Positions 156 through 58,510 of a stretch of 64,000 nucleotides of DNA are shown here, piece after piece (positions within the stretch are counted from its first letter, which is position 1; every line of letters begins with the position of its first letter). Origin of the DNA: Cladocopium goreaui (Eukaryota; Sar; Dinophyceae; Suessiales; Symbiodiniaceae). The stretch covers positions 75,453 to 139,452 of the forward strand of contig CAMXCT020004079.1 of the NCBI GenBank assembly GCA_947184155.2, given 5' to 3'. The notes beneath the pieces were generated by a model. It saw only the letters and a list, made by a program, of their open reading frames with translations, searched no databases and had not been told where the DNA came from. The position numbers and the translations under genes were made by a program.

Positions 156-195
156 CTTACTTTTGCTTAGCGGAATTTTAGAATTTTTTTGGGCC
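156..195 (+). repeat. left terminal inverted repeat of the 3-kb element
   Basis: TTACTT then TTGCTTAGCGGAATTTTAGA and a T-run. The reverse complement of 3088-3126 gives the same core with a 2-bp insertion near the tip and a small difference at the T-run. Confidence 0.75.
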
Positions 196-574
196 TTGTT
201 TTTCTTCAAAGTCAGGGGAGTGGCAGGGGCAGCTAAAAACGAGAATCAAAAATAACTTTGAAAGAAGTAAACGAGAAAACCATGTGTAATAGAAACCTGT
301 TTCCTACCACTGTGCAGACGCATGCCGAACCATCATATATCTCCTATAAGAAATGACGTTTCAATCCCATTAGACTTCGTTTGCTGACCTGATAAACAAA
401 GAAGCTTCAGACGAAACTTGCAAGGTGGGATGCAACCGGTAAATCCATGTACGGAAAAAACACCAAAATAACTTTGCATGGTTTCAACGAGAAATGTTCC
501 TTCGGGGAACGAGGAAAGGAAATAAGTTTCTGAATCTTGAAGCATTGGAACCATTGAGGCTGCACGCGTTTCAT

Positions 575-593
575 TTTAGGCAGAGCAGCTAAA
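575..593 (+). repeat. hairpin with variant loop GCAGAGCAG
   Basis: Arms TTTAG and CTAAA flank GCAGAGCAG, which differs from the CCGGAGCAG loop of the other copies by two bases. It is the weakest member of the family. Confidence 0.45.
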
Positions 594-634
594 TCTGATC
601 CCTAACGTCCCAAAAATGCCAGCACATTGCATGT

Positions 635-664
635 GGCAGGACGGCCGGAGCAGCCAGACCTGCC
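635..664 (+). repeat. constant-loop hairpin, copy 1
   Basis: Loop CCGGAGCAG at 645-653. Inner pair GG/CC and outer arm GGCAGG/CCTGCC are separated by unpaired AC on the left and AGA on the right. Confidence 0.75.
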
Positions 665-722
665 GTCTGCTTGCTGAGCTATCGAAATTTCAAAATTTTC
701 GACTTGCTTTGCCAGTGCATGA

Positions 723-752
723 ACAGGACTAGCCGGAGCAGCTAGTTCCTGT
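723..752 (+). repeat. constant-loop hairpin, copy 2
   Basis: Arms ACAGGA-CTAG and CTAG-T-TCCTGT around CCGGAGCAG (733-741). The ten base pairs are perfect except for one unpaired T four bases after the loop. Confidence 0.85.
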
Positions 753-773
753 CACACATACAAGTCGTACAAG

Positions 774-1193
774 CTAGGCGGCAACCAGCGGGTCCCAAAC
801 GTCATCCTCCTCTTCGTCTCCTTCATTGTTGTCATCGCCATTGCCATCCTGGTTTGTTTTTATTTTTTTAGGCGGAGGCTCCTCAGTCGCCTTGGCTTTC
901 GGCTTGGGCTTCGGTTTCCCAGACGCATTTGCTTTCCTTTTTTTGGTTTCTGTCTTTGCTTTTGGGCCTGGCTTCGGCTTCGGAGTCGGAGTGTGGGTCA
1001 CGACGCCGATGGCTTGCGCATAGTTGTTGTTGAACAAAGGGCTCGACGGGTATGCCATGCTGGTTTGCATCAGGTCAAGTCCCTCCAACAGCTTGCTGTG
1101 GACCTCGTTGTAGGTGACACCAAGGTAGGCCACTCTGTTCTGCAAACAAGCAAAAGCTAGTTTGCCATCTGCTGCCCTCAGATCCACATCCAT
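774..1193 (-). CDS. unrecognised protein fragment with basic, proline-rich tail
   Basis: An open frame of about 139 codons. Residues 1-65 look like a folded segment (for example LAFACLQNRVAYLGV). Residues 70-110 are rich in Lys and Pro (repeated KPKP and PKKIK), resembling nuclear targeting signals, and an acidic stretch (EGDEEEDD) precedes the stop. The frame just upstream on the same strand (1178-1450) runs into this one with a one-base frame change at about 1190, so the two were probably one protein. It lies inside the TIR-bounded 3-kb element. The protein family was not recognised; a decayed element-encoded gene or a captured host gene are both possible. Confidence 0.45.
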   Translation of the reverse strand: MDVDLRAADGKLAFACLQNRVAYLGVTYNEVHSKLLEGLDLMQTSMAYPSSPLFNNNYAQAIGVVTHTPTPKPKPGPKAKTETKKRKANASGKPKPKPKAKATEEPPPKKIKTNQDGNGDDNNEGDEEEDDVWDPLVAA

Positions 1194-1450
1194 CTTCCAA
1201 AGAATGTGTGCAACAGCTCTTCCATCAGCTCAATGGGAGGGCTGAAGAAGCACACTGGCTCTGGCGCGTCCTTCGCACGGTCATTGACCTTGGGCTTGTC
1301 GTCCATATTCGTCCATCCTTCTATTTTGCCTCCCACAGAGATGAGGTGCTTCTTACCATAGAGGTCCTTTTTCTGAGACCATTTCAATGTCCATTCGTCC
1401 GAAAGCCTGGGCAAGAAGTTTTTGGAGAGAGCCTTGGCCGGAGCAGCCAA
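1178..1450 (-). CDS. unrecognised protein fragment, upstream part of the preceding entry
   Basis: About 90 codons with coding-like composition (SDEWTLKWSQKKDLYGKKH, then FFSPPIELMEELLHTFFG). After FFG the frame ends in WMWI-stop, while the +1 frame continues as KMDVDLRAADGK into 774-1193. A one-base indel or an unusual junction at about 1190 would join them. The first in-frame ATG lies within a constant-loop hairpin (copy 3), whose minus-strand reading is MAAPAKA, so the hairpin has either entered the coding sequence or marks an exon edge. The function is unknown. Confidence 0.45.
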   Translation of the reverse strand: MAAPAKALSKNFLPRLSDEWTLKWSQKKDLYGKKHLISVGGKIEGWTNMDDKPKVNDRAKDAPEPVCFFSPPIELMEELLHTFFGRWMWI

Positions 1451-1458
1451 TGGCTCTC
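1427..1458 (+). repeat. constant-loop hairpin, copy 3
   Basis: Arms GAGAGCC-TTGG and CCAA-T-GGCTCTC around CCGGAGCAG (1438-1446). There are eleven pairs and one unpaired T in the same place as in copy 2. Confidence 0.85.
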
Positions 1459-1540
1459 GTGTCCGAGGCAGGGAACGGCCGGGTCAGAAATACCACTAAA
1501 ACAACTGGAGCCAAAAGCGACGACGAACGAGTATTTGGAA

Positions 1541-1613
1541 GCTCCTAAGGAGAGGTCAAATCGTCCTCTCCTTAGGAGCATCGCTAACGATGGCGATGCT
1601 CCTAAGGAGAGGA
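1541..1613. repeat. nested palindromes, first set
   Basis: GCTCCTAAGGAGAGG and its reverse complement flank a 9-bp spacer (1541-1579). The right half then serves as the left arm of a second, 21-bp perfect palindrome (1564-1584 with 1593-1613, loop TAACGATG). A near copy lies at 1681-1752. Confidence 0.8.
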
Positions 1614-1680
1614 CACGGAGAGGACAATGGTATGTTTTGCATGATCGCTTAACGGAATTTCAGTTTCGTCCTCTCCGCGT

Positions 1681-1752
1681 CCTCTCCTTAGGAGCATCGC
1701 CAACGACGGCGATGCTCCTAAGGAGAGGTCAAATCGCCCTCTCCTTAGGAGC
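1681..1752. repeat. nested palindromes, second set
   Basis: A 20-bp perfect inverted repeat (1681-1700 with 1709-1728, loop CAACGACG) overlaps a further GCTCCTAAGGAGAGG palindrome (1714-1752). The loops of the two sets differ by two compensating-looking substitutions (TAACGATG against CAACGACG). Confidence 0.8.
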
Positions 1753-1893
1753 TTGTCAGGGGCAGCGGAGAGGCTCCTAAGAGTCTTTCATCTTGTTTTG
1801 CTGTCATGGATTTCGAGCTCGACGAGCAGCTGGCTTCTGCAAGGCCGCCGCTGTGCAAACAATTTGCTACCATACAAAAATGAGGCTCCCAAG

Positions 1894-1919
1894 CGCCCAG
1901 GCCGGATCAGCCTGTTGCG
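1894..1919 (+). repeat. constant-loop hairpin, copy 4
   Basis: Loop CCGGATCAG (1902-1910), inner arms CAGG/CCTG, outer arms CGC/GCG with unpaired C and TT. Confidence 0.7.
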
Positions 1920-1954
1920 TTCGTCATTGCTGCCTAAGTAAAACTAAGACTTCC

Positions 1955-1986
1955 AAGCGTGCAGGCCGGAGCAGCCTGTCACGCTT
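1955..1986 (+). repeat. constant-loop hairpin, copy 5
   Basis: Arms AAGCGTG-CAGG and CCTG-T-CACGCTT around CCGGAGCAG (1966-1974). There are eleven pairs with the single unpaired T. Confidence 0.85.
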
Positions 1987-2004
1987 CTGCCAGAATTGGC
2001 GATC

Positions 2005-2032
2005 CGAACTCAGCCGGAGCAGCTGATGTTCG
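2005..2032 (+). repeat. constant-loop hairpin, copy 6
   Basis: Arms CGAAC-TCAG and CTGA-T-GTTCG around CCGGAGCAG (2014-2022), with nine pairs and the unpaired T. It coincides with the end of the minus-strand frame at 2010-2583. Confidence 0.85.
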
Positions 2033-2583
2033 ACTTGCCAAAGTCCACATGAAATTCCCCAGTGCGAAGATTAACATCCACACGGCCTTCGTGCACTGCC
2101 ACGAAAAAAAAATCAAACCAGGTGCCCATGTCCAAGTGAACCCCTGCTTGGCTCACTTGCACGAAAAGTGCCATGAGCTCTTCAGCATGAAGAAACTCTT
2201 GCTTGGTATTGTTGGTGAGACCGCATTTAACGCCTTGCATTCGCAGCGGCAACCCTGTGACAATGCGACGGTCTGGGGCTGCATCTAAGTCTGTCAAGTT
2301 GATTGCCGTCAAAATGTCCAAGGCTATCTCCAGGTCCCGCAAACATTTGGCAACGCCGGTGCCATGCAAGTGCTGCCGCATCCAAAAGAACGCATTTCTG
2401 CAATTTTCCACTCTGTCTGGCACTTCATGCAGCGGAAATGCTTTCAGTAATTTAGTGCGAGTTTTGGAAACAAGGGCGAGAAAACTTTCACGTTCATCCT
2501 CAAGCTTTGCAGCCAATCCCCCATGGCTGCCTGTAACCATGACCCAGCCTCTGGGCATGCAGGATCCATGTCCATTTGCTTGA
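2010..2583 (-). CDS. unrecognised protein, probably decayed
   Basis: The most coding-like part of the element: helical, charged sequence (LAAKLEDERESFLALVSK, FFWMRQHLHG, CLRDLEIALDILTAINL, EFLHAEELMALFVQVSQAG) ending DFGKSN just before hairpin copy 6. The frame stays open to 2819, but the upstream part reads poorly in this frame; another minus frame at 2510-2600 (MDAAVKQMDMDPACPEAG) looks better, which suggests a frameshift or an exon border near 2510. No catalytic motif was recognised, so I do not assign a function. Being inside a TIR-bounded element, it may be its former protein or a captured gene. Confidence 0.45.
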
Positions 2584-2619
2584 CAGCCGCATCCATTTGG
2601 ACTTGCCATCGCCAGACCC

Positions 2620-2664
2620 AGCGCATGCAGCCTTGGCCGGATCAGCCAAAGACTGCATGGCGCT
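2620..2664 (+). repeat. constant-loop hairpin, copy 7, longest arms
   Basis: Loop CCGGATCAG (2637-2645). Arms AGCGC-ATGCAG-C-CTTGG and CCAAAG-A-CTGCAT-G-GCGCT give about 16 pairs with small bulges. Confidence 0.85.
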
Positions 2665-2669
2665 GAATG

Positions 2670-2697
2670 TGGCTTTGGCCGGAACAGCCAAAAGCCA
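2670..2697 (+). repeat. constant-loop hairpin, copy 8
   Basis: Loop CCGGAACAG (2679-2687). Arms TGGCT-TTGG and CCAA-A-AGCCA form nine pairs with one unpaired A where the other copies have T. Confidence 0.8.
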
Positions 2698-3087
2698 TCC
2701 GCGGACAAGGACAGGAACTGCAGCAGTTCAGAGCCCAACGCCACGAGAAAAGAAAATAGCGCATGTGCTATCCCTAATAACTTTTCTGCCTTGAAACGTG
2801 TTTCAGAAAGGAGACCCACGAGAAAAACACAAATTACATTGGTGACATAGCTGCTGGGTTGAACCTAACGCTTCCAAACATTAAATTAAGAGTTCAATGG
2901 TCATTTCCCGACTGGAAATCACAGATTGACAGCTGTTTCCAAGTTACCCAGCAAAGTAAAACGCAATGGCGGGTTTACGGGGTCCCTGGTTTTGATGCAG
3001 AAAATAACTTTGCTGAGAGCAAACGAAAAAAGAAAATTAGAAATTTACAAAGAAAAAAAGCAAACATGTTTACACAAAAAGTAGTCA

Positions 3088-3131
3088 AAAAAAAATCTAA
3101 AATTCCGCTAAGCAAAAGCAAGTAATGGGTG
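3088..3131 (-). repeat. right terminal inverted repeat of the 3-kb element
   Basis: An A-run, then TCTAAAATTCCGCTAAGCAA and AAGCAAGTAA. It is the inverted partner of 156-195. Confidence 0.75.
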
Positions 3132-3446
3132 ATGATAATGATAATGGTAATCTACTGTTCATCCATTCATTCTTTGACAAACCATGAGTTCTAGTGGACA
3201 TTCGTGATGGTCCCATCCTGGAGCCAGCCGGATTGAAAAATCCTTCCCTTTTTTGGGGGTCTGATCCCATAGTGGAGATCCGGAAAAAATGTTGGGGATC
3301 TATCTATTTTCAAGATGCATATATATCTATCAGATCTATCTATCTATATGGATCTATCTATTTTCTTGGGGATCTATCTGGTTCTGATCTTGGTGATGAA
3401 AATGGTGATGTACCCTGAATCTTCAAGATGCTCCCTCAGCATCAAG

Positions 3447-3486
3447 GTGAAGGTCTTGGAGGGTTTGAACTTGGACATCCCTGCCA
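3447..3486 (+). CDS. ABC NBD exon 1 (strand before Walker A)
   Basis: Reads VKVLEGLNLDIPA and then the first base of Ser. This matches the family pattern 'xVLxGLNLxIPAG'. Acceptor AAG|G, donor A|GTGCCT (phase 1). Joined to exon 2 it gives IPASQVVALVGPSG, exactly family length. Confidence 0.8.
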
Positions 3487-6400
3487 GTGCCTCGGAAAGC
3501 CGCTGGGTTTCTTGGGATGTTTTTGGTGGATGGTGATCTCCAAAAGATGGACATTTGGGTCACTGATCACCAGGGATACCCTCTGGTAAACATACAAAAA
3601 ACTATGGTAAATCACCATGCTATTAATGGGTTCTATGGCCATTTTCAATAGCTATGTTAGTTTACCAGAGGGTATCTGGATTGGTGGTTTGATGAGTGAG
3701 CTGGCAAATGATGGCTAGTCGTCAGTATCACTTGACATTCGTGGGGACAGGTTGCCACCAGCCATCATGCGGACACTTTCCATTGAACGACATACATAAA
3801 ATTCATGGGATAGACAGCCATTTTAAGCGGCTATTTTTGTACTAAAAATGGAGGAATCCATGGTTCTGACCCATTCCCATTTACTTTTTTGGGGGTTTTA
3901 TTCTTGATGGAGGAATCCATGGTTCTGACCATTCCCAAAAAAATGGAGGAATCCATGGTTCTGACTATCCATGCTTATTCACCCATTCCCATCCTGATGT
4001 TTGTCAATCATAATGTTTATTGTGTATCGGTATTTCTGGGTTATCCCCGACTTCCCAGAATGATGGGAGCATCGGCAGGAAACCTTTCGATTTCATGGCA
4101 ATGGCTTAAGCCATGTTTTCCTGTAGATTCCCCCATCCGTTGATAAGTGATAAGTACAAAAAACCATCGTAATATACCATCAATAGTATGGTATTTGGTA
4201 ATATCTGGGTCAACCTTGGTTAGATACGAACTAGTGCCTTAATCTGTTGCTATCAATGGTAAGATGTACGAACGAGCAAATAGATTTTTTGCCAGGTATC
4301 TAAGATTCACTGGGAGTAATACACCATGAGTATATCATAGTATAATCATTACAACTATATGTCCTCTACAGTATTTGGTAATAGCCATCAATAGCAATAT
4401 ACTATCCATAGTTACCATATAGTGTCTACCATTCACCATTCATTGGTATGTGGTAATATTAATAACATATAGTTCATCTACCATATTTGGTTTATAGTTC
4501 ATCTACCATTTGGCGTCAACATTACTATTATATAATCTACCATCAATTTACTAACATAGTGCCAATGCTGGTAACCACTAATCATTAGTTCATCTAGTAT
4601 CTAATGAACTATACCATTAATAACCATACTAGTTCATTAGATATTCATAGTAGTAATTAATAGTACCATAATAATATACCATGAGATGTTCATTAATAAC
4701 TATACTAGTTTATAACAGTACCATTAATAGTTCATTGGTTAGTTGCCGTGTTGTTCTGAAATGTGCCATGAGTTCCCGGTGCCAAGGCCAAGTGGTAGCC
4801 TTGGTTGGCCCTTCAGGCAATGGCAAGAGCACTGCCACTTGGATCCGATGTGGTGCAGGTTTTTGGGTGAGTTACCCAAGCGAAATAAAGATGAAATTCA
4901 ACCAACTTAATGGGGTTTAATGGCGCTTAATGGAACTTAACAGGTTTCCTTGGGAGCGGTTACTGGAGTTCATGGGGTTTACGAACTGGTTTCCATACTA
5001 CTTTCTTGAAGGAGTTGAAGAATCTCCAAATCCCTGGCCTCACCCACAACTCCATCTCTCGCGTCGCGTTTTGAACAACGCTTATGGCATCCAGCTACTC
5101 GCCACTGCGCGCAGCTCAGCTGAAGCTTCAACAGCCAAGAAGGCACAAGAGGAGAAGCCAATTCGCGAGATGGCGAACCTCGTGAAGAAGAAGAAATCGC
5201 ATGAAGAGGATGGCTGCGAACATCGTGAAGGTTCGTGGAAGGTGAGTTTGGCCAAAAGTCCACATCTTGGAGGGCATTTTGGAGGGCATTTTCCGGAAGT
5301 TCAATTCCGCGTTGGAGGCGACTTCAGGTCCAGAAACTCTCAGTTCTTCCAAGAGGCCGGGGAGTTCGACTGAAGCCGGTGGGGCTTCCTTTCTTTCAGT
5401 GAGATCGGATCTCAGAGTGCACTCACATCACCACTGTAGATATAACCAGCATAACCCTAGCTATTGGAATTATACACTAACTAGCTAACTATTCGGCACT
5501 ACCCTGTAAAGGTGGAACTCAACCGGCAGAAAATGTTGATGTACCTTGCTATAACAGTAGTTGTTTGGCAACAAGCATTTATGTTGGTGCCAGGAAGAGA
5601 TAATGATGGTTGAAGTCAAGAACACTCATTGTGGTTTTGGGATGAAAATTGTTTGGTAATTGAAGACATTGCAAAACCACTGCAAAACCGCAGATGTTGG
5701 TCGCTTTTGGTGTTGAACTATCTCATTTCGGGGTAATCTCTTCCCTCCAATATGAGACACCCTCAAGCACTTGAATTGTAGTGGATCCATTAATCGCTTG
5801 GGGTCCCAAGAATTGTCGATATGTCATATTGTATTCTCATTGTTTGCCTGTTTTATTTTTCTATATATATATATATATTCAATCTGTTTGGGAATATCCC
5901 CGGATATCCCCATTTGCAGTTCTACAAAATCCATGAACATCTGGTTATATCATGGTATACCCTTTTTTGACCGTAAAAAAAACCTTGTCTTTTCGATGAG
6001 TGAAAAGAAACATGAATCCTCCAGTATTCCTTCGATGATATTCCCAGTAGTATACCTATGTGATATTTTGCTTACAGTTATGCACTTATACCCCTTTTTT
6101 GGATTGCTCAATCCCTATTTTGTTGGAATTTCCATAATTATACCCCTCTTGTTGCTGGTGAAAACTCGGATGTTGTATTCCCATTTTGCTGGTATATTAT
6201 CCCCATATAGTGTTATTCCATTCCCAGAAATATATCATATACCATAATATTGCCAGTAATTCCTCACCATAATGTATAACCATAATATACCCATGATACT
6301 GTGGATGAAAGAAATCCTGCACCACCTTGGATGGTTGAAACCCTTTAAATAGTGGGAGAAACTACCTATCAACTGGTGCAGGATTTCTTCCACCCCTCCA

Positions 6401-8957
6401 TTGCCAAACAGCGCTGTTTCACATTAGGTCATCTCTTTGATCAAGCGGCTCTACCATGTCTCAGCAGCTGGGCGATGGTGTGGAATATCATATGGTTCTA
6501 GCTCCAAAAAGGATGGAAATAGCGGTAAAATGGTGGTAAAACCCTGGTGAACCATGGTAAAATGTGGTGAAATCCTATGACGCTAGTGATATATCGTGAT
6601 ATATCTGACATTTGCAAGCCAAAAAGGATAGAAGTGGGTAAAATCCTGCTAAACTCGTTATAAATGAAGCTGGTCAGCCATTCTGCATCTTTTTTCGGCA
6701 TGACAACCATTGGCGGATCAAATGCCATTGCCTGAGGCTGGTGAGATTCTGCTGGATGGAATTCCCATTTGGCATCTCGGTAAGGATCAGCTGCAGGGTG
6801 GGGATTGGACCTACCTTAGCACCAGTTAAACCCAAGCAGTCTTCAGATATACCGGCATCCCCACACTTGGGACCCCATTCAGAGCAGGGCCATGTCGGGT
6901 TGCAACGCTAAATGCCAAAGCAGGGCCATGTCGGGTTCCATGTTAAGGCCCCGGTAACAACCCTTCCTCCAAAGGGCCGAGCCGTGTGAGGCAGTACTCC
7001 CACTGGCACTTCCATCAAGTTGTGTCCATCGTGGGACAGGCGAACAGAGCCGATTGGAACCGGTGCTGGATGTAACCTACAATCCTTGGTGCCCTAGTTT
7101 GGAATCGCTGAGTTGGTGAACATAAACAAAGACATTCACCGGTAGGACATCGCTGAACGAAGGGATCACCCCTATCTCACTTTCACCAGACTTGAAAGTA
7201 ATAAGTGGGGTGCGGATTGTGAGTTCTTGAAATTGCCATTTAGGGGTATGCACCTTGTGACACACCTAAACAACCATCCAAAAATAGCAAGGTTCTGGGT
7301 TTGGTGCTGTTCTTTCTGGTGCATCTGAGTGAATCATCCAGAAAAAACGCCTTGGGGTGATATGTGTTGTTCATGGGGTTGTCTCAAATGTTTGGAACCC
7401 TATGAAAAATCGCATGGCTCAGCTCATGGGCGGGCTTTGGCCCCTAAAATCGCCATCTGTGAAATTGAAGCTCCTTTTTTGATGTGAAATAAGCTTCAAA
7501 TCATCTTGTTGGTTGTATATTATATAGAGAGTGTGTATATATATATATAGTATATCCACCATCCCTGTTCTGCTTTTGCCCCGGCAAAGTGGTGCCCTCC
7601 CAGTTTTGTTTTGTACGAATACAACAGTTATTGGACTTATGTAGATCCCAACTTATGGAAAACCACCTATAAGTTAGCTTACAAACTCCATCCACTACCC
7701 TTAAACCTCCATTAAAACCACTCTTTCGGTGGGATTTGGCACCTTTCCCGGGCATCAAAAAAACCCTCCAGGAGCCAGTCCTCTTCGCCCGCAGCATCCG
7801 CGAGAACATCTTGCTGGGCCTGGCGAATCCCAAGGAGGTGGCCGGGAAAGCCATTCCCGCCAGTGCCGTGGCACATCGTGGCCCCGCGGTGGACCAACAA
7901 GGCCAAGAAGGTACCCCAAAATCCAACCTGTTTGAACATCATCTCGACAATTCTTTCATGGACAGTCACATGGTTAGAGCACTACCCTCTGGTAAACTAA
8001 CATAACTATACATAACTATGGAAAATCATCATTTTTCAATGGGTAAATCAACTATTTCTATGGCCATTTTCAATAGCTATGTTAGTGTACCAGAGGGTAG
8101 CCGTGAACGCCCAGAGTTCAATGACATTCGCATGATATTCAATAGTTTAAGTAGAACTTCATATCAGGGTGATTCTCTATGATGTTCATTTACCATATTT
8201 CATCATGATCTAAAACGTGAACATCAGTGGGGTTGTCACAAAAATGTTGGGAAAAGCTCAAACTTGGATTGCCTTTGATGGTGTTGAACATCGTTCTCTC
8301 TGTAATTTGCTGGGTGTAGTTCATGTCCAGACACACCCACATGACCCTCAAAAATGCTTCAATAGTTCAGGTACGATCTTGAAAAGCCTCCATAGTTTTG
8401 AAATGTCTTGAAAATGTTTTAAAGTCAACAAAGGGGATCAATGTTTTGATGACAGCATCAGTTGGAACATCCATGGCACAGAACCACCACATCATCCCTT
8501 TTTCACCAAAAAACATCCACGGCACGCCGCACGCCGCGGTAGCAAATTGCAAGCGGTTAGACCATGAATGATGGTCTTGGGATAAAAAGCCATGGTCTTG
8601 GAATACATAAATACCATGAATTAGTATGCCTAGAATTTCAATTAAATCATGAATGATTGTCTTTTGAATCATACAAGCCGTCTTGGGATACCCCAACATT
8701 TCAGCGACCCAAAAAGACGTCCAAAAATCTCAGGTGACGTCAATGTGAGCGAGGATGAGATACGAGACTTTGCGAGGAAAGCGAACGCCGATGATTTCAT
8801 CTGCCGGATGAATCAAGGCAGATGGATGGGTTGATCGGAAAACCAATGGACATAAATTGGGCATAACCAGGTAACGACCACAGGTTGGGATACAACATCT
8901 CTAACTATTGATCATTATAATATATATATATACATCGCCACTTAATATGTGGATGGT

Positions 8958-8988
<31 letters not shown>

Positions 8989-11900
8989 GATGATGGTGGA
9001 GTCCGTGTAATTCATGGACTTTATTGGTAATTCTAGTGAAATAGATCCTGTAACATCATATAAATATGTTTTTAGGCGATAACCTTCTGGGGTTGGGATT
9101 TCACCAACAAAAATGAGATTCCATCAAGAATGTGATGCTACAGCCAGTGGGAAACTGATGAGTTACGGGTGGTTCAATACCTAAATGGTCGTCATAAAAA
9201 TAGGGAGGAAGATCATAGCCATCAACACTGGAAATGGGACCTTGTGTTTGGCCCCAAGAAGACATGACGACAGCCACAAGCCCCCTGCCAACCCGATTTT
9301 TGTAGCCAAAGACGTCTGAGATCCACAGTCTTTCTCTGTGCACTGACACGTGCATGAATCAACTGTGTAATGGCACATCCTTTCCCGGTCACTACCTATT
9401 AATCACAGCCTTCAATAATGAGGCAATGGAAAGTTTGTCTTGGAGTGCCGTGGGGTTATCAAGCCTCTTCCAGATCCGGCTTCTGGCAAGACATGGGAAC
9501 TTCAACTGGTTGCTTCCAACATTCCGTTTGTGACTGGGGTCAGCAAAATGTGGGCATGTCATTGTTCCAGAACAAGGAAGGCAAGTGGCGCTGGAGCTTG
9601 AAATGAACGTCTCCGAGTCCGACAGTCCGACCCTGGCTCTGCTAGCATTGCTCTTGGCCCATCTCCACCGGTTTGACACCTGCGAAAGAAGGAAACATGG
9701 CAAAGGGTTAATAAAAACATTGGCATATGGCTGGTAGATTGCTCCTATACTCTATAATAAATTGCTGTGTTTCCCAGTCGGTCCCAGATCCTCAAAAGTA
9801 AGAACCGTGGGCTCACAAGGGAGTCAGGTAACAAAGAGGTCTTGGCAAGTTCGAATGTTGCAAGGAGGTTTGTCGGCTGTGGCGGACACCAGGACTCACA
9901 AGTTGGGGTTCTCTTGGTCACCAGAAGTTTCCATGGGCGAAACTTCCGCGATCCAAAATCGTCAATTTGTGATTTTCCAGCAAATCCAGATCCCCAACAC
10001 AACACCTGGTAATTGAAACCAGTACTACACAATGGGCAGTGTGATTGTCGCTCCTGGCCAGAAGCTTTTCTTCATGTTCAAAATCCTTGACCTGCTGAAC
10101 GCTGCGAGATCATCATCCAGACATCATCCATGGCTTCAAATGCTCTCTATGTGTATATGTTCCATCCCTAAATATTAGATCCATTTTTTTTACAGTAAGA
10201 TGATAGCTCAAACAAAAGCATGGCGGAAAGAATCTGGTCGAGTTGAATTGTCAACCAGATTGGTGCCTGAACGCCTGAACCTTTGCCACCGCGCGGGCTT
10301 TTCGGTGCAGGTTATGATGCCCTGGTGGGTGAGCGCGGTGTGCAGCTTTCAGGAGGTCCGTCCAACTTTTGCGAGGATCTAACCAGCAATGGAAATATCA
10401 TGAGGATACAGGGGTCCCGTTCGTTGTTGCGTTCAGTTGCCTTAAAAGTGGAGAATTCTATGGTTTATGGCACATTTAATTATAGTATTCATGGGGTTTA
10501 TAAGCAAACTTGTAGCAGGGGCACCATCCTGTATAGTCTGGATTAATTATAATGACCTCACTGTGACATCACTGGATGTTTGACAAGGGAAATCACGCAG
10601 TAATGATGCATTTGTTCTGGTTAGTAAATTCGTCTAATTCGGCCAGATATGATGGAATATTCCATATATATATATCTATACATACATAATTGTGGAGGAT
10701 TTAAACCATAAACTATCCATACTTGGGATTTGTCTAAAATCACTGGTGAAACGCGGTGATTCAGCTGACCCTTTTTTGGGGATATAACCAACCAACAGTT
10801 GGTGGGGATATCATCAGGACTACAACATGGTATATAGCGAAGAATTGAGGAGCACCCATCGATAATTGGGGGGGTTCTGATGACATATCGGTTGTAGAAT
10901 AGGCATAATTGGGAATAATACTCGTCTAAACTCTAGCGGAAATGTTGGAAAAGCGAATCTTCACTATCTTCATGGAGATTCACTTTTCTTTCTTCATGTA
11001 GATTCACTGTTCTATCTTTTTGGTGGATGACCATAAGTTTCGCTCCTTGTCATGATCACCAGGGATGATCACCAGTCATTCTCCATGATCGACATCGCCC
11101 GTTGTCACCCGGTTGTAAATGGTGTATCCCAGCTGTGGGACTTAGCAGCTACGATTACTAAACAATATGCTGCATGTCCGGAGGGCTTCCCACTGGACCA
11201 GACAGGAAAACCCAACCAGAGTGACAATTCTTCGCGACTTGATAACTTCATCAGGATTCCAGCCACTGATCACAAAGTCCGTCACGAAAAATTGCTCCAC
11301 CAACTGGATCACCAAGTTGGAAAATGGTAGACAACGCCTCAACGTAGATAAACCAATGTTCAAAGAGGACAAGGAGATGTTCGAAAGGAAATACTTCTTC
11401 GAGAAGCAGAAGAGGTACCCCAGAACGGTCATGAAGGGGCTATATTTCCAGAACTTAGACGCAGCCTTTGAAAACGCCCTGAATGAAGACGAGAACACAC
11501 GAAGATGAACAAAGTCTGGAAAAGCGCATGGTCGCATTTGCAGGCAGCCCTGCCCCTTGTGGCCTTGCTCCACATTGTTCCGTCGGGTGTGTTTTGGCCG
11601 AAGCCTTTTTTGGGTGATTTCCCATTGAAAATCTACCATCTATGAACACTTTCCTGAGGAAACCCGGGGTATCCAGGTCAGAAGCAGCGCATTGCCATTG
11701 CACGGGCGCTTGCCAGGCGGCCAAAGGCCAGGTTCTCACTGTCGAATCGCTGATCACTGATTTAGGGGACAATAATGATTTATAGCCACTTAAATGGTTG
11801 ATATGTCATATGAATATTACATGGTTTATCCAATATTTCATGTGAATATTATATGGTTTATGCAAGGTAGGGGGGCCTAGGTTTTGTTTATTGAACCCAT

Positions 11901-14900
11901 TTGGCTGCTATATCTACCATTAAAAGAAGTTTGTCTGGTTATGTTCACCAAGTTAGCTATCGTTTGGAGGCTCCACCCTATAATATAGAACAATGATGAA
12001 TATGATGGAATCATGCGTGGAATCGAAATGTCTGGTGGAAAAATCAATTTTTATCTATTTGATCATTGGCATAATATGGGAATGAAATGGGAATATAGCT
12101 GGTTTCTTAAATTGGAGACCCCAAAACCCATCAACATTATTCTTTTTTAGTACTTTAGAATAAGCCGTGGTTTGCACAGACCCCAATTTAGAGAAACACC
12201 CAAGCGCAGAAGTTCGTCATCAGGATCTCAACTTGTGGTGACCGTTCAATGTCCAGATCCGGAAGGTTTCGCTGTCGGTCGGCCTTGTCAAGGAGAAGAT
12301 GGACGAACACGCTACGATGGACTTGCCACAGAAGTATACTGTGTGGCTTGATTTGATCATACCTGCAGTTTTTTGTGGATAAAATCAATGATTTTTTACT
12401 ATAAACCACATTTACTACGATACAGCAGAACATATCCGATCTGCTGACTCCGACGGCAGTGAGGCAGGCATTCATTGGACGAGCGGCGAACCTGACGTCA
12501 ATTTCAGGGTTCCATCCATGGAGCGGACATCAAAGTTGGACTTTCATTTTTGCGAATTTGTAGCTTAGCCAGGTGCAGGGATACTGTTTGAAGGTCCCAA
12601 ATTTCGGACCCCCGCCCCCGTTATTTTGAAAGCCGTGTCTGGTCTATATCTCGTTTATGTTGGTTTAGAACCCCATTAAGACCTGATTTCACCAAGAATG
12701 TCGTGTTTTTTACCATCCCATGGTATTTAATACATCACCCGTTTTGTGCTGGTTATTGCAGAATCAGGATATCTAAGATTGGTTATGATTATGGTAAAAT
12801 TCATGGTGACTGTACCAACCATGTTGTGGATGTCAGGATTGGTTCACAACCCCCCCATTTCCCAATGATCGCCGGTCGAATCATGGTCGAATCCGAATCC
12901 CCATCTCTCCAATGGCTGGTAGAGTCTCATGGAATTGACCATGATAACTATGATATGATAATCAGTTGGGATTGTCCAACTTACAACCCCCCCACTATGA
13001 GAATCAGGTTTTCCATGTCCCCATGATATTCCCATGGGTTGTTAGTGATACCCCTATGTTCGATGGTCAAAACCCCATAATTCCTGGCTTATCCCATCTA
13101 TAAATAGCTGAACTAGGTATGGTTATTAACCACTTATTAAGTTTCATGGGTTACTGCCCATATGACTCCCATCTTATGCCCATATCATTATTCCCATATT
13201 ATGCCCATGATATGATTAATATATATATATACTACAATGAGTTATATGATGACTGTGTACCATTACACCATTATTGACTAATTACAGTAAATATATATTA
13301 TTACTTACATACTATATACATCATTGCTGATTACTATAATTAGCCACCATTATATAATATTACTATACATTACACCATTATAATCATACACCATTATAAT
13401 CACTTATTAACCACCCAGTTAAGTTTAATGGTCTATTCACCACGATTCCCGTATTATGATGCACTTATTAACAAGGTATATGTTGGTTGATAGCTATGGT
13501 TATTCACCTTTTATTATGCCCACTTATTACTATAATTATTGCTAGTAATAGACCATAGGCATGATATTATGTGATGGTTATATCCATGATTCTATAGTAT
13601 ATGGTCATTCTTAACCATGGTTATTAACCACTTATAATACCATGACTATTCCCAAATTATGCCCATGATATCTTCTCATTACGTACACTCCAGGTGCTGC
13701 TGCTGGACGAAGCCACCAGTGCATTGGATGCGGAATCGGAGCAACAGGCCACGACTTCGTCGATGACGAAAGCCATGTATTTCTTGGGGGTTTTACCCAC
13801 CCAAAGTGCTGGAAAAGTTGGGATGTTTACCTACCAAAAGGGTGAAAATACTGGATTTGACAGACAGAAAAATTGTGAACTCAGAAAAATGGTGGATGTC
13901 ATGAGGAGAAATTGTGGTTTGACCAAAATGTGGATTTAACTCATCAAAATGTGCGATTTTATTTACAAAAGTCGGGATTTCCATGGCGAAATTATGGATG
14001 TTTTCCAAAGACGGAGACTCACCCTGGTGCGTAAGAGTGATAAGAGATTGGGATGTTAGAATTGATTTCAAGGGTTTTACCCTCTGGTAATTTAACATAG
14101 CAAACTGGAAAATCACCATGCTATTAATGGGTAAATCCACTATTTCTATGATAATTTTCAATAGCTATGTTAGTTTACCAGAGGGTAAGTGTCAACATTC
14201 TGGGGCTATACTTGACACCTGATAATTGGTTGATGGGTCCTTGCGAGTCCTTGCGGGGTAGCCTACCCTTCATATTGGTTGGGGATTATCATACTCCATG
14301 ACCTAGGAATCACCTGTTTCATTGTGGGGACATGTGTTTTTCTGACACTGCTCACTTGAAGAACTACGGGGAAGGAACCATTTGAATGGGGAGAGAGTGT
14401 CCATTTCCCAGCTATGAAAACCAGGGTGCCCGGTTTTGATCCATACCCATACCTTGAAACTTTCACCAACAAAAATATGATGCCCTTCGATCGGAACTAA
14501 TTAGTGATTTCGCATAGTACTTTTCCGCTCCGAAGAATTTGGTGATGTCACCAGCAATCACGCAGAACCACAAACAGGGGCCATGAAACAAGGGAATGCT
14601 GCCAGCAACAATTGAATCCTTTGTATTTTCCATCCTTGAAAACGGAATGCTGATTCAAAGTGACTCATAAGTTTGGATGGATTGAAACCGATTAAATTCC
14701 GGGTCAGAAACTATCGAGTCGAATCAGCGTCACAGAGCAGCGTCACAGAGCAGCGTCCGGAATCAACATCCAAAGGTTCGGATCAGCGTCGCAGAATCAG
14801 CGTCAAAGACGATCCTGGGTCAACATCGTGGATAAATGGTCAGGATTGTCGGGATGGTCGGGATGGTCGGGGTAGTCCGCAAGGTTGCCATCTATACCGT

Positions 14901-35461: not shown

Positions 35462-37770
35462 GCCAGGTCAAGTGATGAAGTCGGTGCTGGTAGTTCTCCC
35501 ACTTTGACCGGGAGGGCCCGGAGGTGCACGGCCCCGAAAGAAAACATCGGACAGGGAAGTTCGTTTTTTGCGTTGGATGAGGCTTCACATGCCATTGTAA
35601 CTAATCAGTATATCGAATATAAGTAACCAACTTAATATGATACTTGAGTGCTGCACGAATAATTTCATAAATCACTAACCAAGTATAACTTGTATAACTA
35701 ACCAACTTGATAGTTGATTTCTTGTGAGAACTTGGCAACTGGATCCATGGATAAAAACTGTTTGGGAATCCCCGGCACAGGTGGAGCGACGACTTTGTCG
35801 ATGTCGATTCTCCCCCTGGGGTTATGAGGTGCGCTGTGCACCTCACTATTGGATCAGAAAATTGAAACCGGAAACCCCACAATATATTTGATGCTACAAA
35901 CCATGGTTTTCTCAAGATATTCCTCAGATCAATCCAGTATGAATCTCGAGTTGGCGCCAATGACAGTTCTATCTGGTTAAAGGGGATCTGGTCTTCCAAG
36001 ATGTTTCTTGCTATGAGCCCCCAAGTCCATAGAACCGCGAGGTCAAGTACCACAGCCACTGTCCAAGACCTGATGGCGAGGTACAGCAGAGCTCTGCGAA
36101 GAATTTGCAATGGAAACTGAATGCTGGGTGGTTGATTAATGAAAATCATGAGCCCCGACTGAAAAATCTGATGAAGTCGGTGCTTGTAGTTCTCCCACTT
36201 TGGCCCGGAGGGCCCGGAGGTGCACGGCCCCGAAAGAAAACATCGGACAGGGAAGTTCGTTCGTTGCGTTGGATGAGGCTTCACATGCCATTGTAACTAA
36301 TCAGTATATCGAATATTAGTAACCAACTTAATATGATACTTGAGTGCTGCAAGAATAAGTTCATAAATCACTAACCAAGTATAACTTGTATAACTAACCA
36401 ACTTGATAGTTGATTTCTTGTGAGAATTTGGCAACTGGATCCATGGATAAAAACGGTTTGGGAATCCCCGGCACAGGTGGATCGACGACTTTGTCGATGT
36501 CGATGTCAATTCTCCCCCTGGGGTTATGAGGTGCGCCGTGCACCTCACTATTGGATCAGAAAATTGAAACCGGAAACCCCACAATATATTTGATGCTACA
36601 AACCATGGTTTTCTCAGGATATTCCTCAGATCAATCCAGTATGAATCTCAAGTTGGCGCCAATGACAGTTCTATCTGGTTAAAGGGGATTAATTAATGTG
36701 GTAAACCAAGTAGTAAATCATACTCAAAGTTTGCCATGTGTGTTTTGTTTCTTGGGGACTCAGCGTAAGTTTGCAAGATCGTAGTGTTTGTGATCTGGTC
36801 TTTCAAGATGTTTCTTGCTATGAGCCCCCCAAGTCGATAGAAAGGTAAACAATCATTCATCACTCGTCATTTAAACAGTAGGGAAGCACAGTTCTGTCAT
36901 GTTCTGAAACTTGCACCACTTTTCCCATCTGAAAGTTCTCCGGTCCGTGTGGTCGTCAGGTCAAGCACGACAAGCATCGTCCAAGACCTGATGGCGAGGT
37001 ACAGCTCTGCGAAGAATTTGGAATGGAAACTGAATGCTGAGTGGTTGATTGATGAAAATCATGAGCCCCGACTGAAAAATTTTCGATACCCGCCCGAAAT
37101 GATAATTGTGAGAATTACTTCTGAAAGTTTGCCAGGTCAAGTGATGAAGTCGGTGTTGGTGGTTCTCCCACTTTGCCTGTGAGGTGCACGGGCCCGAAGG
37201 AAAACATCGGACAGGGAAGCTCATTTTTCGCGTTGGATGAGGCTTCACATGACATTGTAACTAATCAGTATATCGAATATTAGTAACCAATTTAATATGA
37301 TACTTGAGTGCTGCAAGAATAATTCATAAATCACTAACCAAGTATAACTTGTATAACTAACCAACTTGATAGTTGATTTCTTGTGAGAATTTGGCAACTG
37401 GATCCATGGATAAAAACGGTTTGGGAATCCCCGGCACAGGTGGAGCGACGACTTTGTCGATGTCGATTCTCCCCCTGGGGTTATGAGGTGCGCTGTGCAC
37501 CTCACTATTGGATCAGAAAATTGAAACCGGAAACCCCACAATATATTTGATGCTACAAACCATGGTTTTCTCAAGATATTCCTCAGATCAATCCAGTATG
37601 AATCTCGAGTTGGCGCCAATGACAGTTCTATCTGGTTAAAGGGGATTAATTAATGTGGCAAACCAAGTAGTAAATCATACTGAAAGTTTGCCATGTGTGT
37701 TTTGTTTCTTGGGGACTCAGCGTAAGTTTGCAAGATCGTAGTGTTTCAAGAATAAGTGCTGCAAGAATAA
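35462..37770. repeat. large tandem repeat, three copies of 0.6-1 kb
   Basis: Copies 35462-36168, 36169-37130 and 37131-37770 share GATGAAGTCGGTG, GAAAACATCGGACAGGGAAG, TATAACTTGTATAACTAACC, TGATAGTTGATTTCTTGTGA, a GCGACGACTTTGTCG hairpin and GAGGTGC-GCTGT-GCACCTC. Copy 2 has about 250 extra bp. Minus-strand frames across copies end in similar YTSYTWLVIYE words; I know such words from repeat-derived predicted proteins in Symbiodiniaceae, so this is probably a mobile-element relic. A fourth, partial copy is at 39401-40080. Confidence 0.85.
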
Positions 37771-56081: not shown

Positions 56082-58510
56082 GTGCCACATCCATGGGAAC
56101 ATGTTTAATCCAAACGCGAGAAAAAATGTCACTTTCATATACCCTAACCAACCCCAATGAACCCCAATGAGAAAACCAGGTAGAGCAAACTCAAGCTGCT
56201 CATTTCACCCCATCAAACTGTTAGATCGCATCCCAATCGCAGAGAGCCCTCAGGCATGCCACGCGTCCATTTGCCCGAAGCTCCTGGTCTTCAATTCCGT
56301 TATCAACTGCTGTGGCCGGGCAAAGCAATGGAGATATTCCTTGCATGTCTTGGACCAGCTGGGCCAGATGCGGCACAGACCTGATGTCACTTGGCAACTT
56401 CAAAACAATATGATGATAAAGTCCCAATGCCTTAAAAGATTTTGTTTTTTCAACTTCACCCATCATCACGGGCATCCAACCCTGAAACAAATCCATGGTT
56501 AAATCAATACATTATTGAAGAAACTTTTCATCCCTCAGCTTCATCTGGTTCGCTTGGAATTCGCAGGTGATTTCGTTGAGTGCCGCAATCAGCGCCTGCG
56601 AGCGGGGTCAGCAATGGCCAGTGGCCCTGCAGCTCTTCGATACATTCCGCAGTGCCGCGGTGCAGCTGGATCTCATCGCCTGCAACTCGGTGGTCAGCGC
56701 CTGTGACAAGGGAGGCCAGTGGCAAGCTGCGCTGCATCTCCTGCGAGATGCGCTTTGTCCGGAAAATGGAGAAGCATCCGTGTACCCCGAAATAGCCATG
56801 TAATCCGGGAAAATGATGGTAATGGCGATGATGTTGATGATGATGATGATGATGGTGATGATGGTGATGATGATGATGAGGAGGAGGAGGAGGAGCTATG
56901 GGATGGCATTACAAATTTGAGAGACGACTTCAAGTGTGGGTGCTTGGCTCATTCAAGATGGACTTGTTTCGATGTTTCCATGTACATTTAGGCCTTCATG
57001 TATGGTAGAGGCGAACTGCAGACTTCCAGTATGGTTCCATTGGCTGCTTCATTTCCAATCAAGGAGCCTTGCACCACCTGGCATATTGATTTGCTGATAC
57101 TGTCCTGCGTTTCCTCCACAATGCCATTAGGTGAAAGGCAATCATTCCATGCACCTCAATGTCCCCAGGTCCAAGAGCATGATCTTCAACTTGACGCCAT
57201 CAGTTTCAATGCCGCCATCAGCGCCTGTGCCAAGTCGACCACATGGCCATGGGCCTTGCAGTTGCTGGATGGCTTGCAGACTTCGAAGCTGGAAAGTGAC
57301 ACCGTGAGTTTCAACGCAGCCATCAGTGCTGCTGAAGATTGGCAGATAGCTTTCCATTTGCTGGATCAAATGGACCAACTTCAAGTGCAGCGGGACATTG
57401 TCTCATTTAATGCGACTCGGGAAACAAATCGATTCGAAGTCAACTGTGAAGCTTTGAAGTTGCGAAGTCTTTTTTGCTTCTCACGTACCAAGCCGTTAAA
57501 AGTTGTTGAAGTTTTTTACCAAAACCCTAGTGGCCCTTCCTGGCAGCCGCCGCAGGCAGCTATCAGCGCAAGCGATTGGCACCACAGCTTGCTGCTCCTT
57601 GAAAGGATGCGATTTATATCAATGCCTCCACAACTGATCACCTGCAGCACAGCCATTACATCCTGTGGCCTCGGGGGTCGCTGGCAGGACGCCCTCCATT
57701 TGTTCGAAGGCATTCAGAAGCCAGATTTGATCGCCTTCAATGCGTTGATCAGCGCCTGTGAGAAGGGTGGTGCCTGGGAAGCTGCGTTGCAACTGATGCG
57801 AAGTTTGCCACAGGTGTCCTTGCGTGCTAATGTGATCACTTACAACTCAGCCTTGAGCGCATGTGAGAAGAGTCAGCAGTGGCAACAAGCGATTTCCATC
57901 TTGTCTCAGCTGCCACTGAAAGATGGCATCAGTTTCAACGCCTGCATCAGCGCCTGTGGTCGTGCCAGCCAGTGGCAGGCTGCCTTACAGCTGCTATCGC
58001 AGGCCGGCACCGAGGGCTTTGCGGATGTGGTGACCTGCGCGGCCAGCGTCAATGCTTGTTCTGAGGCAGGTCTTTGGCAACAGGCGTGGGTGGTGTGGAG
58101 GGCTGGCATCAGCAGAAAGCAGCGGAAAAGATTTGAGGTCAAAATATCAAACTTGAGAGCTGTACAGAATTATTGCTTTGGATTGTTTCTGGCAATGAAT
58201 CATACACTTCTGGATTGCGACATGTTCGGGGATGAGTGGCCCTTTCAAAAGAAACTCGCTCAGTCAGGCTCTCCTCGTCTTCTTTCAGATGCGAACCATG
58301 GTTGGGACCAATGCCGGGGTCCCCGAGCGCCGGCAGGATCGCAGGTAGACATTCAGTTTCTCAAGATAGGTGAGATGGCCTATTTACTGTGGTAGTGGTA
58401 GTGAAGTGAAATGTTGAGGTTTGCAAAGAAGTTTTTGTAGCTGTGCTTCCGTGGTTCACCCGAGTGGCCCCCGTCAGGTTGTGACCTACGGCGCTGCAGT
58501 CAGTGCTTCG
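56016..58510 (+). CDS. pentatricopeptide-repeat (PPR) protein, seven joined exons
   Basis: Exons 56016-56081, 56254-56385, 56567-56749, 57169-57411, 57556-58101, 58289-58318 and 58478-58510 all join in phase 0 and give 411 codons with no stop. The protein is a chain of roughly 35-residue helical repeats with the dinoflagellate pattern 'xxFNAxISACxKxxxWxxALxLL'. PPR repeats bind single-stranded RNA, one base per repeat, and most such proteins act in plastids or mitochondria in splicing, editing or stability. No catalytic tail was seen here. Donors: GT after exons 1, 2 and 6, GC after 3, 4, 5 and 7; all acceptors are AG|G except the sixth exon (CAG|ATG). The 5' end (start codon, targeting peptide) was not identified. 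More PPR-coding pieces follow up to 61.6 kb. Confidence 0.85.
56254..56385 (+). CDS. PPR exon 2
   Basis: ICPKLLVFNSVINCCGRAKQ then WRYSLHVLDQLGQMRHRPD: one repeat. Acceptor TCAG|G, donor GAT|GTCACT. Confidence 0.75.
56567..56749 (+). CDS. PPR exon 3
   Basis: Two repeats: VISLSAAISACERGQQWPVA and LIACNSVVSACDKGGQWQAA. Donor GAT|GCGCTT (GC). Confidence 0.85.
56819..56895 (+). repeat. GATGATGAT microsatellite in PPR intron 3
   Basis: GATGATGATGATGGT and GAGGAGGAGG runs between two PPR exons. The encoded poly-Asp/Glu is intronic. Confidence 0.85.
57169..57411 (+). CDS. PPR exon 4
   Basis: LDAISFNAAISACAKSTTWP, DTVSFNAAISAAEDWQIAFH and the start of a third repeat, DIVSFN. Donor AAT|GCGACT (GC); the join restores DIVSFNAAISAS. 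The intron keeps an open frame, so without the family pattern it would look coding. Confidence 0.9.
57556..58101 (+). CDS. PPR exon 5, longest
   Basis: 182 codons with about five repeats (LITCSTAITSCGLGGRWQDA, LIAFNALISACEKGGAWEAA, VITYNSALSACEKSQQWQQA, GISFNACISACGRASQWQAA, VVTCAASVNACSEAGLWQQA). Donor AGG|GCTGGC (GC). The frame runs on to 58395 but loses the repeat pattern. Confidence 0.9.
58289..58318 (+). CDS. PPR exon 6 (30 nt)
   Basis: MRTMVGTNAG. With its neighbours it makes a repeat of exactly 35 residues, ending AWVVWRMRTMVGTNAGV. Acceptor TTCAG|A, donor GGG|GTCCCC. Confidence 0.6.
58478..58510 (+). CDS. PPR exon 7
   Basis: VVTYGAAVSAS. Acceptor GTCAG|G, donor TCG|GCAGTT (GC). The next exon was not fixed. 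Confidence 0.6.

Follow-up and report, generated by a model that had tools for sequence, protein, structure and literature searches.

A stretch of 64,000 nucleotides from the dinoflagellate Cladocopium goreaui (contig CAMXCT020004079.1, positions 75,453 to 139,452; hereafter the window) was found to carry eight hairpins, all within positions 633-2700, that have one apical motif in common and self-complementary arms that differ from site to site. The hairpins (c1 to c8) sit inside a 3-kb DNA transposon (156-3122) with terminal inverted repeats (TIRs), the interior of which is filled by a minus-strand gene. The tip, pairing, covariation, strand bias, transposon context and conservation in relatives can be read from the sequence itself. 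The hairpins are interpreted here as candidate recognition sites in the sense-strand pre-mRNA of the transposon, with tip and bulge read by an RNA-binding factor, and a probability of about one half is given to this reading.

The Hairpin Array

All eight copies named in a preliminary description of this DNA were present, with the same loop variants (CCGGAGCAG five times, CCGGATCAG twice and CCGGAACAG once). Shuffled sequence, proposed earlier as the control, did not reproduce them. Counted as a loop CGGANCA with at least 8 of 11 inner and outer arm pairs, such hairpins averaged 0.035 in dinucleotide shuffles of the window (n = 200) and 0.004 in shuffles of the block (n = 1000), with a maximum of 1 in either case, against the 8 observed. 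A covariance model built from the eight hairpins recovered all of them at E ≤ 1.8e-9, and outside them no match better than E = 1.6 was found in the 64 kb. A looser search of the plus strand of the window (7-base loop, perfect 5-bp inner stem, one extra right-side base and at least 5 of 6 outer pairs) returned 7 hairpins, 6 of which came from this hairpin family. Scanning the window against Rfam gave 0 matches at the gathering score. A weaker ninth copy had also been listed at 575. It found no support: its fold had a z of +0.62, 139 of 200 shuffles were equally good, and the covariance model gave no match there up to E = 10.

The better reading of the fold is on the minus strand, which codes for the surrounding gene and folded better than the plus strand in 8/8 hairpins. 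On this strand, GCTGNTCCGGC adds two pairs that close an NUC triloop. From the tip downwards, each hairpin consists of the triloop, a 7-bp upper stem (NNNGCUG/CGGCN'N'N') with an invariant U.G pair, one extra base on the 5' side, and a lower stem. All eight tips are GCUG-NUC-CGGC. The unpaired base had been noted before as a T in four copies and an A in another; it exists, and it is more regular than that. It was found on the same side in 8/8 copies, between the inner and outer stems, as T in five and A in three on the plus strand (A in five and U in three on the minus strand). By our own reading of the folds, only one position is possible for it in c3, c5 and c6, c2, c7 and c8 allow it to slide, and in c1 and c4 it falls within an internal loop. 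For c8, a fold in the opposite register has an equal score. When a 2.2-kb transcript was folded, the upper stem reached at least 0.85 in c2 to c7, 0.69 in c1 and 0.44 in c8 on the minus strand, and c1, c4 and c8 mostly failed on the plus strand (0.05, 0.12 and 0.00).

Covariation of the Arms

The arms had been described as completely different from copy to copy. They are self-complementary and do differ among sites, but some of them are related. The copies with loops at 1902 and 1966 have a 40-nt stretch in common (83% identity), and the inner stem TTGGC/GCCAA is common to those at 1438, 2637 and 2679. Across the eight hairpins, 90.8% of 120 cells were paired, compared with 66.2% in shuffles. 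The covariation score was 0.736 against 0.227, which 0 of 500 shuffles equalled, and 11 of 15 pairs had changed on both sides, a number attained by 6 of 500 shuffles. Slid structures were only 25.8-45.5% paired. Five hairpins with other arms, chosen from relatives for having lower stems (two each from loci L198 and L193, one from L209), raised the set to 195 cells, of which 91.8% were paired and 64 showed a two-sided change, against 22.0; counted by pairs with any double change, the set was then unexceptional (126/500 shuffles).

Pairing was also compared with that obtained when right arms were permuted among sites (5000 permutations). In the window, the upper stem held 2.75 of 3 pairs against 1.47 in permutations (0/5000), and the lower stem held 5.38 of 6 against 2.30 (0/5000). 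The corresponding counts for L198 were 14/5000 (upper) and 8/5000 (lower).

The Host Transposon

The element has the makeup of a TIR DNA transposon. Its TIRs are 35 nt long and match at 94%. Target-site duplications of 4 bp were found in 3/3 copies with both ends found (the window, L201 and L202) and, read by eye, differ in each of the three. Copies are dispersed: the protein of predicted exon B, searched in its own genome (1,165,616,438 bases, 6202 contigs), gave 45 matches, several of which are pieces of one copy. Codon scoring, with parts of this minus-strand gene as the training set, gave high values at about 2530-2035 and 1410-775, and two exons with a GT-AG intron between them were predicted there (Table 1). 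The exon B frame stays open beyond the predicted donor, into c6, and another frame across both c7 and c8 also scores as coding. A Pfam scan gave nothing for the three frames of the window element, nor for the exon B relative, and an AlphaFold model from one sequence was uninformative (mean pLDDT 39.6).

The distances of the nearest hairpins from the four predicted exon edges are 24, 0, 20 and 20 nt. With c6 at the predicted donor and c3 close ahead of the predicted acceptor, the hairpins could merely shorten or hold intron ends for splicing, their tip being read by no protein. Paired intron ends are described in the available text on the introners of Amoebophrya (PMC7789003) and on the nonconventional introns of euglenids (PMC4770533). 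The former resemble the present case as repeated, hairpin-capable inverted-repeat elements in a dinoflagellate lineage. However, their inverted repeats of 8-20 nt join both intron ends, with direct repeats of 3-5 nt overlapping the borders (PMC7789003), and the euglenid structure likewise draws the intron ends together (PMC4770533). Here, the pairing seen in the folds is local, within 34-nt hairpins that carry a common tip inside a larger transposon, rather than between both ends of an intron. A constant 11-base tip would also be unnecessary for a purely structural role, and the predicted intron does not include c1, c2, c7 and c8. That the hairpins serve only as structures at intron ends is thus considered unlikely.

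Relatives and Strand Bias

The relatives of exon B comprise close copies or pieces (82-100% protein identity), family I (39-41%) and family II (31-36%). Fifteen loci of 3.0-3.3 kb around exon B matches were examined (L192-L206). In eight of them (L192-L199), the best match of model R1 was in sense orientation in 8/8, at E = 0.0016 or better. Together, the window element and these fifteen loci contained the tip GCTGNTYCGGC 64 + 51 times in sense and 0 times in antisense orientation. A further 12 kb of one family I locus added 16 sense and 0 antisense tips (131:0 in 16 loci). With two motif-chosen loci (8 sense, 0 antisense), the overall count was 139:0 in 18 loci, of which many copies are near-identical, so that the independent weight is that of three families plus the diverged L198 and L209.

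The remainder of the window contained 0 such tips. As a control, twenty 10-kb stretches were searched, 4 beside the window and 16 on contig C1 at or near places with CCGGANCAG. They yielded 4 tips over both strands, none with a full upper stem (the best had 2/3 upper and 4/6 lower pairs), and two weak matches to the model (E = 0.016 and 0.31). Across the genome, GCTGNTYCGGC was counted 6816 times against 2775 for the reversed pattern, and TTGGCTGNTYCGGCCAA 116 times against 1. Among the 100 matches of TTGGCTGNTYCGGCCAA listed, neighbours within 3 kb were on the same strand in 36/36 pairs.

Pairing of the upper arms extends to the diverged families. In family I (one locus, n = 23), the upper stem held 2.52 pairs against 1.71 in permutations (0/5000) and the offset lower stem 2.09 of 6 against 1.52 (49/5000). 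In family II (two of five loci, n = 19), the upper stem held 2.00 against 1.13 (0/5000), and the two families pooled (n = 42) gave 2.29 of 3 pairs against 1.35 (0/5000).

These results bear on the two origins that had been offered for the hairpins. By the first, snap-back or template-switch synthesis placed the core and copied its flank in inverted form, site by site. This would produce arms that are self-complementary and differ between sites, and it could have created the arms long ago. However, close copies of the transposon have nearly the same arms at the same sites, and the arms were therefore inherited with the transposon. Nor would such synthesis be likely to put the extra base on one and the same side of every hairpin, and genome-wide the loop on its own shows no enrichment, CCGGANCAG being counted 18,358 times and its reversed pattern 22,904 times. 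Site-by-site copying is accordingly regarded as highly improbable. The second proposal, that a folded RNA is under selection with compensating changes, is supported by the covariation, the single strand, the invariance of the U.G pair, and diverged relatives that have the same tip and paired upper arms.

The predicted intron also contains a palindromic block built of GCTCCTAAGGAGAGG-type units (1538-1754). It is common to families I and II, with exon B proteins only 31-41% identical, and is perhaps a second structured element.

A Larger Relative With a DNA Methyltransferase

The family I locus C164:277252-292251 carries 23 sense and 0 antisense tips at 2984-12884. The related large element spans more than 11 kb and has its frames on the tip strand (Table 1). 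Its 1022-aa frame gave a zinc-finger match below threshold (PF25431, 18.8 bits, cut-off 29.5) and no other. The tips cluster ahead of the C5 DNA methyltransferase domain, past exon B, and ahead of the protein of the frame at 9374. The window element looks like a short derivative of this larger, methyltransferase-carrying element, because the counterparts it has kept are exon B and exon C alone. The terminal repeat of the window element was not found in the large element in a search that allowed up to 4 substitutions. The methyltransferase inside the large relative is placed at 1-450 of L193 and 6167-7000 of L207. Another locus, L210 (C186:10300-11799), is a deletion derivative in which the 1022-aa frame is fused directly to sequence past exon B.

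In Symbiodinium, the mobile elements with a C5 methyltransferase are LINE and DIRS elements, according to the text available (PMC5890265). The large relative resembles them as a dinoflagellate mobile element that carries such an enzyme. In contrast to them (PMC5890265), TIRs and 4-bp duplications are found here in the derivative. No reverse transcriptase was found by Pfam in ten frames of relatives (one scanned twice), and the word "hairpin" has 0 occurrences in the main text of PMC5890265.

The large element also bears on a role at the level of DNA, in which a transposase or the replication machinery would bind extruded hairpins or a repeated directional site, with no part played by RNA. Such a role would suit hairpins that are confined to a transposon family in a single orientation relative to the element, and other DNA transposons are known to carry internal sites in several copies. 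However, the tips of the 11-kb relative span the coding interior and not just the ends. The conserved U.G is a pair in sense RNA but A.C on the opposite strand, and a double-stranded DNA site does not need free arm sequence with pairing kept. Binding at the DNA level alone is not expected to be the explanation, its probability being low.

Table 1. Features of the window element and of the larger relative. Positions are those of the window unless the relative (C164:277252-292251) is named.
Feature	Position	Strand	Remarks
Left TIR	156-190	+	TAAT at 152-155 outside
Right TIR	3088-3122	-	94% complementary; then TAAT at 3123-3126
Exon B (predicted)	2035-2601	-	Frame change near 2520; 5' edge least certain
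Exon C to stop (predicted)	774-1406	-	Frame change near 1195
GT-AG intron (predicted), 628 nt	1407-2034	-	Joins exons B and C in frame; contains c6, c5, c4, c3
Palindromic block	1538-1754		In predicted intron; common to families I and II, about 67-71% DNA identity
Hairpin c1	633-666	-	Loop at 645; two upper pairs weak or broken
Hairpin c2	721-754	-	Loop at 733; 20 nt past stop of exon C
Hairpin c3	1426-1459	-	Loop at 1438; 20 nt ahead of exon C
Hairpin c4	1890-1923	-	Loop at 1902; weakest lower stem; fold z -1.76
Hairpin c5	1954-1987	-	Loop at 1966
Hairpin c6	2002-2035	-	Loop at 2014; at end of exon B
Hairpin c7	2625-2658	-	Loop at 2637; pairing reaches about 2620
Hairpin c8	2667-2700	-	Loop at 2679; poor pairing in long transcript
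1022-aa frame	2966-6031 of relative	tip strand	
C5 DNA methyltransferase	6167-7447 of relative	tip strand	PF00145, E = 1.7e-40
Exon B relative	7534-8265 of relative	tip strand	
Frame	9374-10828 of relative	tip strand	
Two-frame segment	11320-13330 of relative	tip strand	
Exon C relative	within 13384-14418 of relative	tip strand	Recognised by eye

Comparison With Known RNA Signals

One likeness in design is to the iron-responsive element (IRE), described in the text available as a hairpin of about 30 nt whose tip is fixed, whose 5' side has a single bulged base, and whose stem has an upper part of set length and a lower part (PMC8466369). These features are found in both. The IRE tip is an AGU pseudotriloop with a cross-loop pair, whereas here an NUY triloop stands over U.G. 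The bulged base of the IRE is a C, whereas the extra base here is A, U or C (A five times and U three times in the eight). The upper helix has five pairs in the IRE and seven above the extra base here, and many hairpin copies are present per element, unlike the IRE (PMC8466369). The hairpins were thus rejected as IREs on pseudotriloop, bulged C and helix length alike. Dispersed packaging signals of viral RNA offer a second likeness, with several stem-loops per RNA that each carry a recognition motif in the loop (PMC7612645, PMC7793301, PMC3593212, as far as their available text goes). Here, the carrier is a DNA transposon with no known coat protein, and packaging is not implied. By analogy, the hairpins may act in a similar way to an IRE or to a packaging signal.

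The stem-loops of HAC1 and XBP1 that are cut by Ire1 also combine a fixed loop with free stems near exon-intron borders. As given in the part of the source consulted, the Ire1 rule is a 7-nt loop with C first and G third and sixth (CNGNNGN), closed by Y-G (PMC549064). The loops of the hairpins do not follow this rule, and the two string matches within hairpin segments (c4 on the plus strand, c6 on the minus strand) lie outside the loop. In the window, the string occurs 144 times against 150 expected. By our own reading, an Ire1-like loop-to-loop joining of c6 and c3 would not unite the two coding frames.

No description of a similar hairpin array was recognised in the literature searched, most subscription journals lying beyond the reach of the search. 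The titles returned for the tip string appear, among the matches listed, to be unrelated. In IMG/VR, neither the exon B protein patterns nor an exact 22-mer of the terminal repeat found a match. Tips that look alike do occur in bacterial genomes and in viral contigs, and appear to be due to chance: among the matches listed, 0 of 162 exact upper hairpins had an offset lower stem (at least 5/6 pairs) and 2 had a straight one. The best model match of 43 viral loci (IMG/VR locus L004, 6233-6265; 30.4 bits) was also set aside, having a straight stem if wobbles are allowed. It has the same tip on this strong stem, with no extra base, and is perhaps a terminator.

Cleavage by a nuclease is a further way in which the tips could be read. 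A double-strand-specific enzyme would cut the transposon RNA at the tips and feed small-RNA control. Some tip-reading RNase III enzymes select their targets by a fixed tip with free stems, and the many sites along one strand would fit such processing or silencing. However, in families I and II many stems measure no more than about 6-7 bp, and retaining such sites would harm the element. We consider this very improbable.

A Proposed Recognition Site in Transposon RNA

A constant tip, free but paired arms, a single strand and the extra base of the subfamily fit a site read by an RNA-binding factor. In the mechanism proposed, the hairpins would belong to the sense RNA of a family of TIR DNA transposons. 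The pre-mRNA sites would fold with the fixed tip GCUG-NUY-CGGC, its triloop over the invariant U.G, and the bases of the stem would merely need to pair. In the subfamily of the window and in some hairpins of relatives, the extra 5'-side base would part the upper from the lower stem. The tip and bulge, at their set spacing, would be read by an RNA-binding factor acting in trans, which the element itself may encode, and the sites would tag the pre-mRNA of the element for splicing or for processing of another kind. A role in processing is favoured because many sites adjoin coding segments. From the features above we infer transcription of the element, the exon edges, the binding factor and its function. 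A more specific form of this proposal is put forward tentatively: the family would have its own RNA recognition code, in which a protein encoded by the element uses the constant tip to pick out and process the element's transcripts, with sites bracketing coding segments. Since the arms need only pair, a site could then persist through stem drift, which would explain one tip on many stems.

Several observations weigh against the recognition-site reading. Pairing of the lower stem and the extra base were absent in family II (2.00 of 6 pairs against 1.89, 1779/5000 permutations), and most of the 23 family I sites have the short stem alone, so the bulge is not universal. The pairing tests across families therefore indicate that the upper stem is general and that the lower stem with its extra base belongs to the subfamily of the window and some other hairpins. 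In the 2.2-kb transcript, lower stems were weak (0.03 in c4, 0.17 in c8). Wobbles beyond the invariant pair were strand-neutral (3 G.U against 2 A.C). Some family I tips lie within long open frames (10559, 11563). Placement in the window speaks for the reading, as 0/8 hairpins overlap predicted exons, for which random placement gives 0.0001, but the exon edges were set with the hairpin positions known and the test is suggestive only. Given no exon overlap, four edges within 25 nt have a chance of 0.05.

Other Features of the Window

Elsewhere, the window contains a PPR-repeat gene with the SACEK motif (56992-58395, plus strand), part of whose open frame resembles a read-through intron. In the text available, the SACEK motif is described from core dinoflagellates and from some heterokontophytes, cryptophytes and haptophytes (PMC12787238). 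Long frames of short repeated words (of the HTQLTHTQ, TLYTLHS and FYTQ type) were seen at 42.9-43.9, 52.4-53.8 and 62.0-62.7 kb. Near-identical stretches surround CCGGCACAG at 35772, 36468 and 37431, with spacings of 696 and 963 bases.

Concluding Remarks

A fixed tip on free stems is a typical mark of RNA signals that are read by proteins, both in the mRNAs of cells and in the genomes of viruses. The array of such sites on one strand of a DNA transposon, retained in relatives with 31-41% protein identity, points to a transposon that marks its own RNA or processes it. Together, the larger relative with its DNA methyltransferase and the short derivatives offer a testable system for the recognition of transposon transcripts in dinoflagellate-type genomes.

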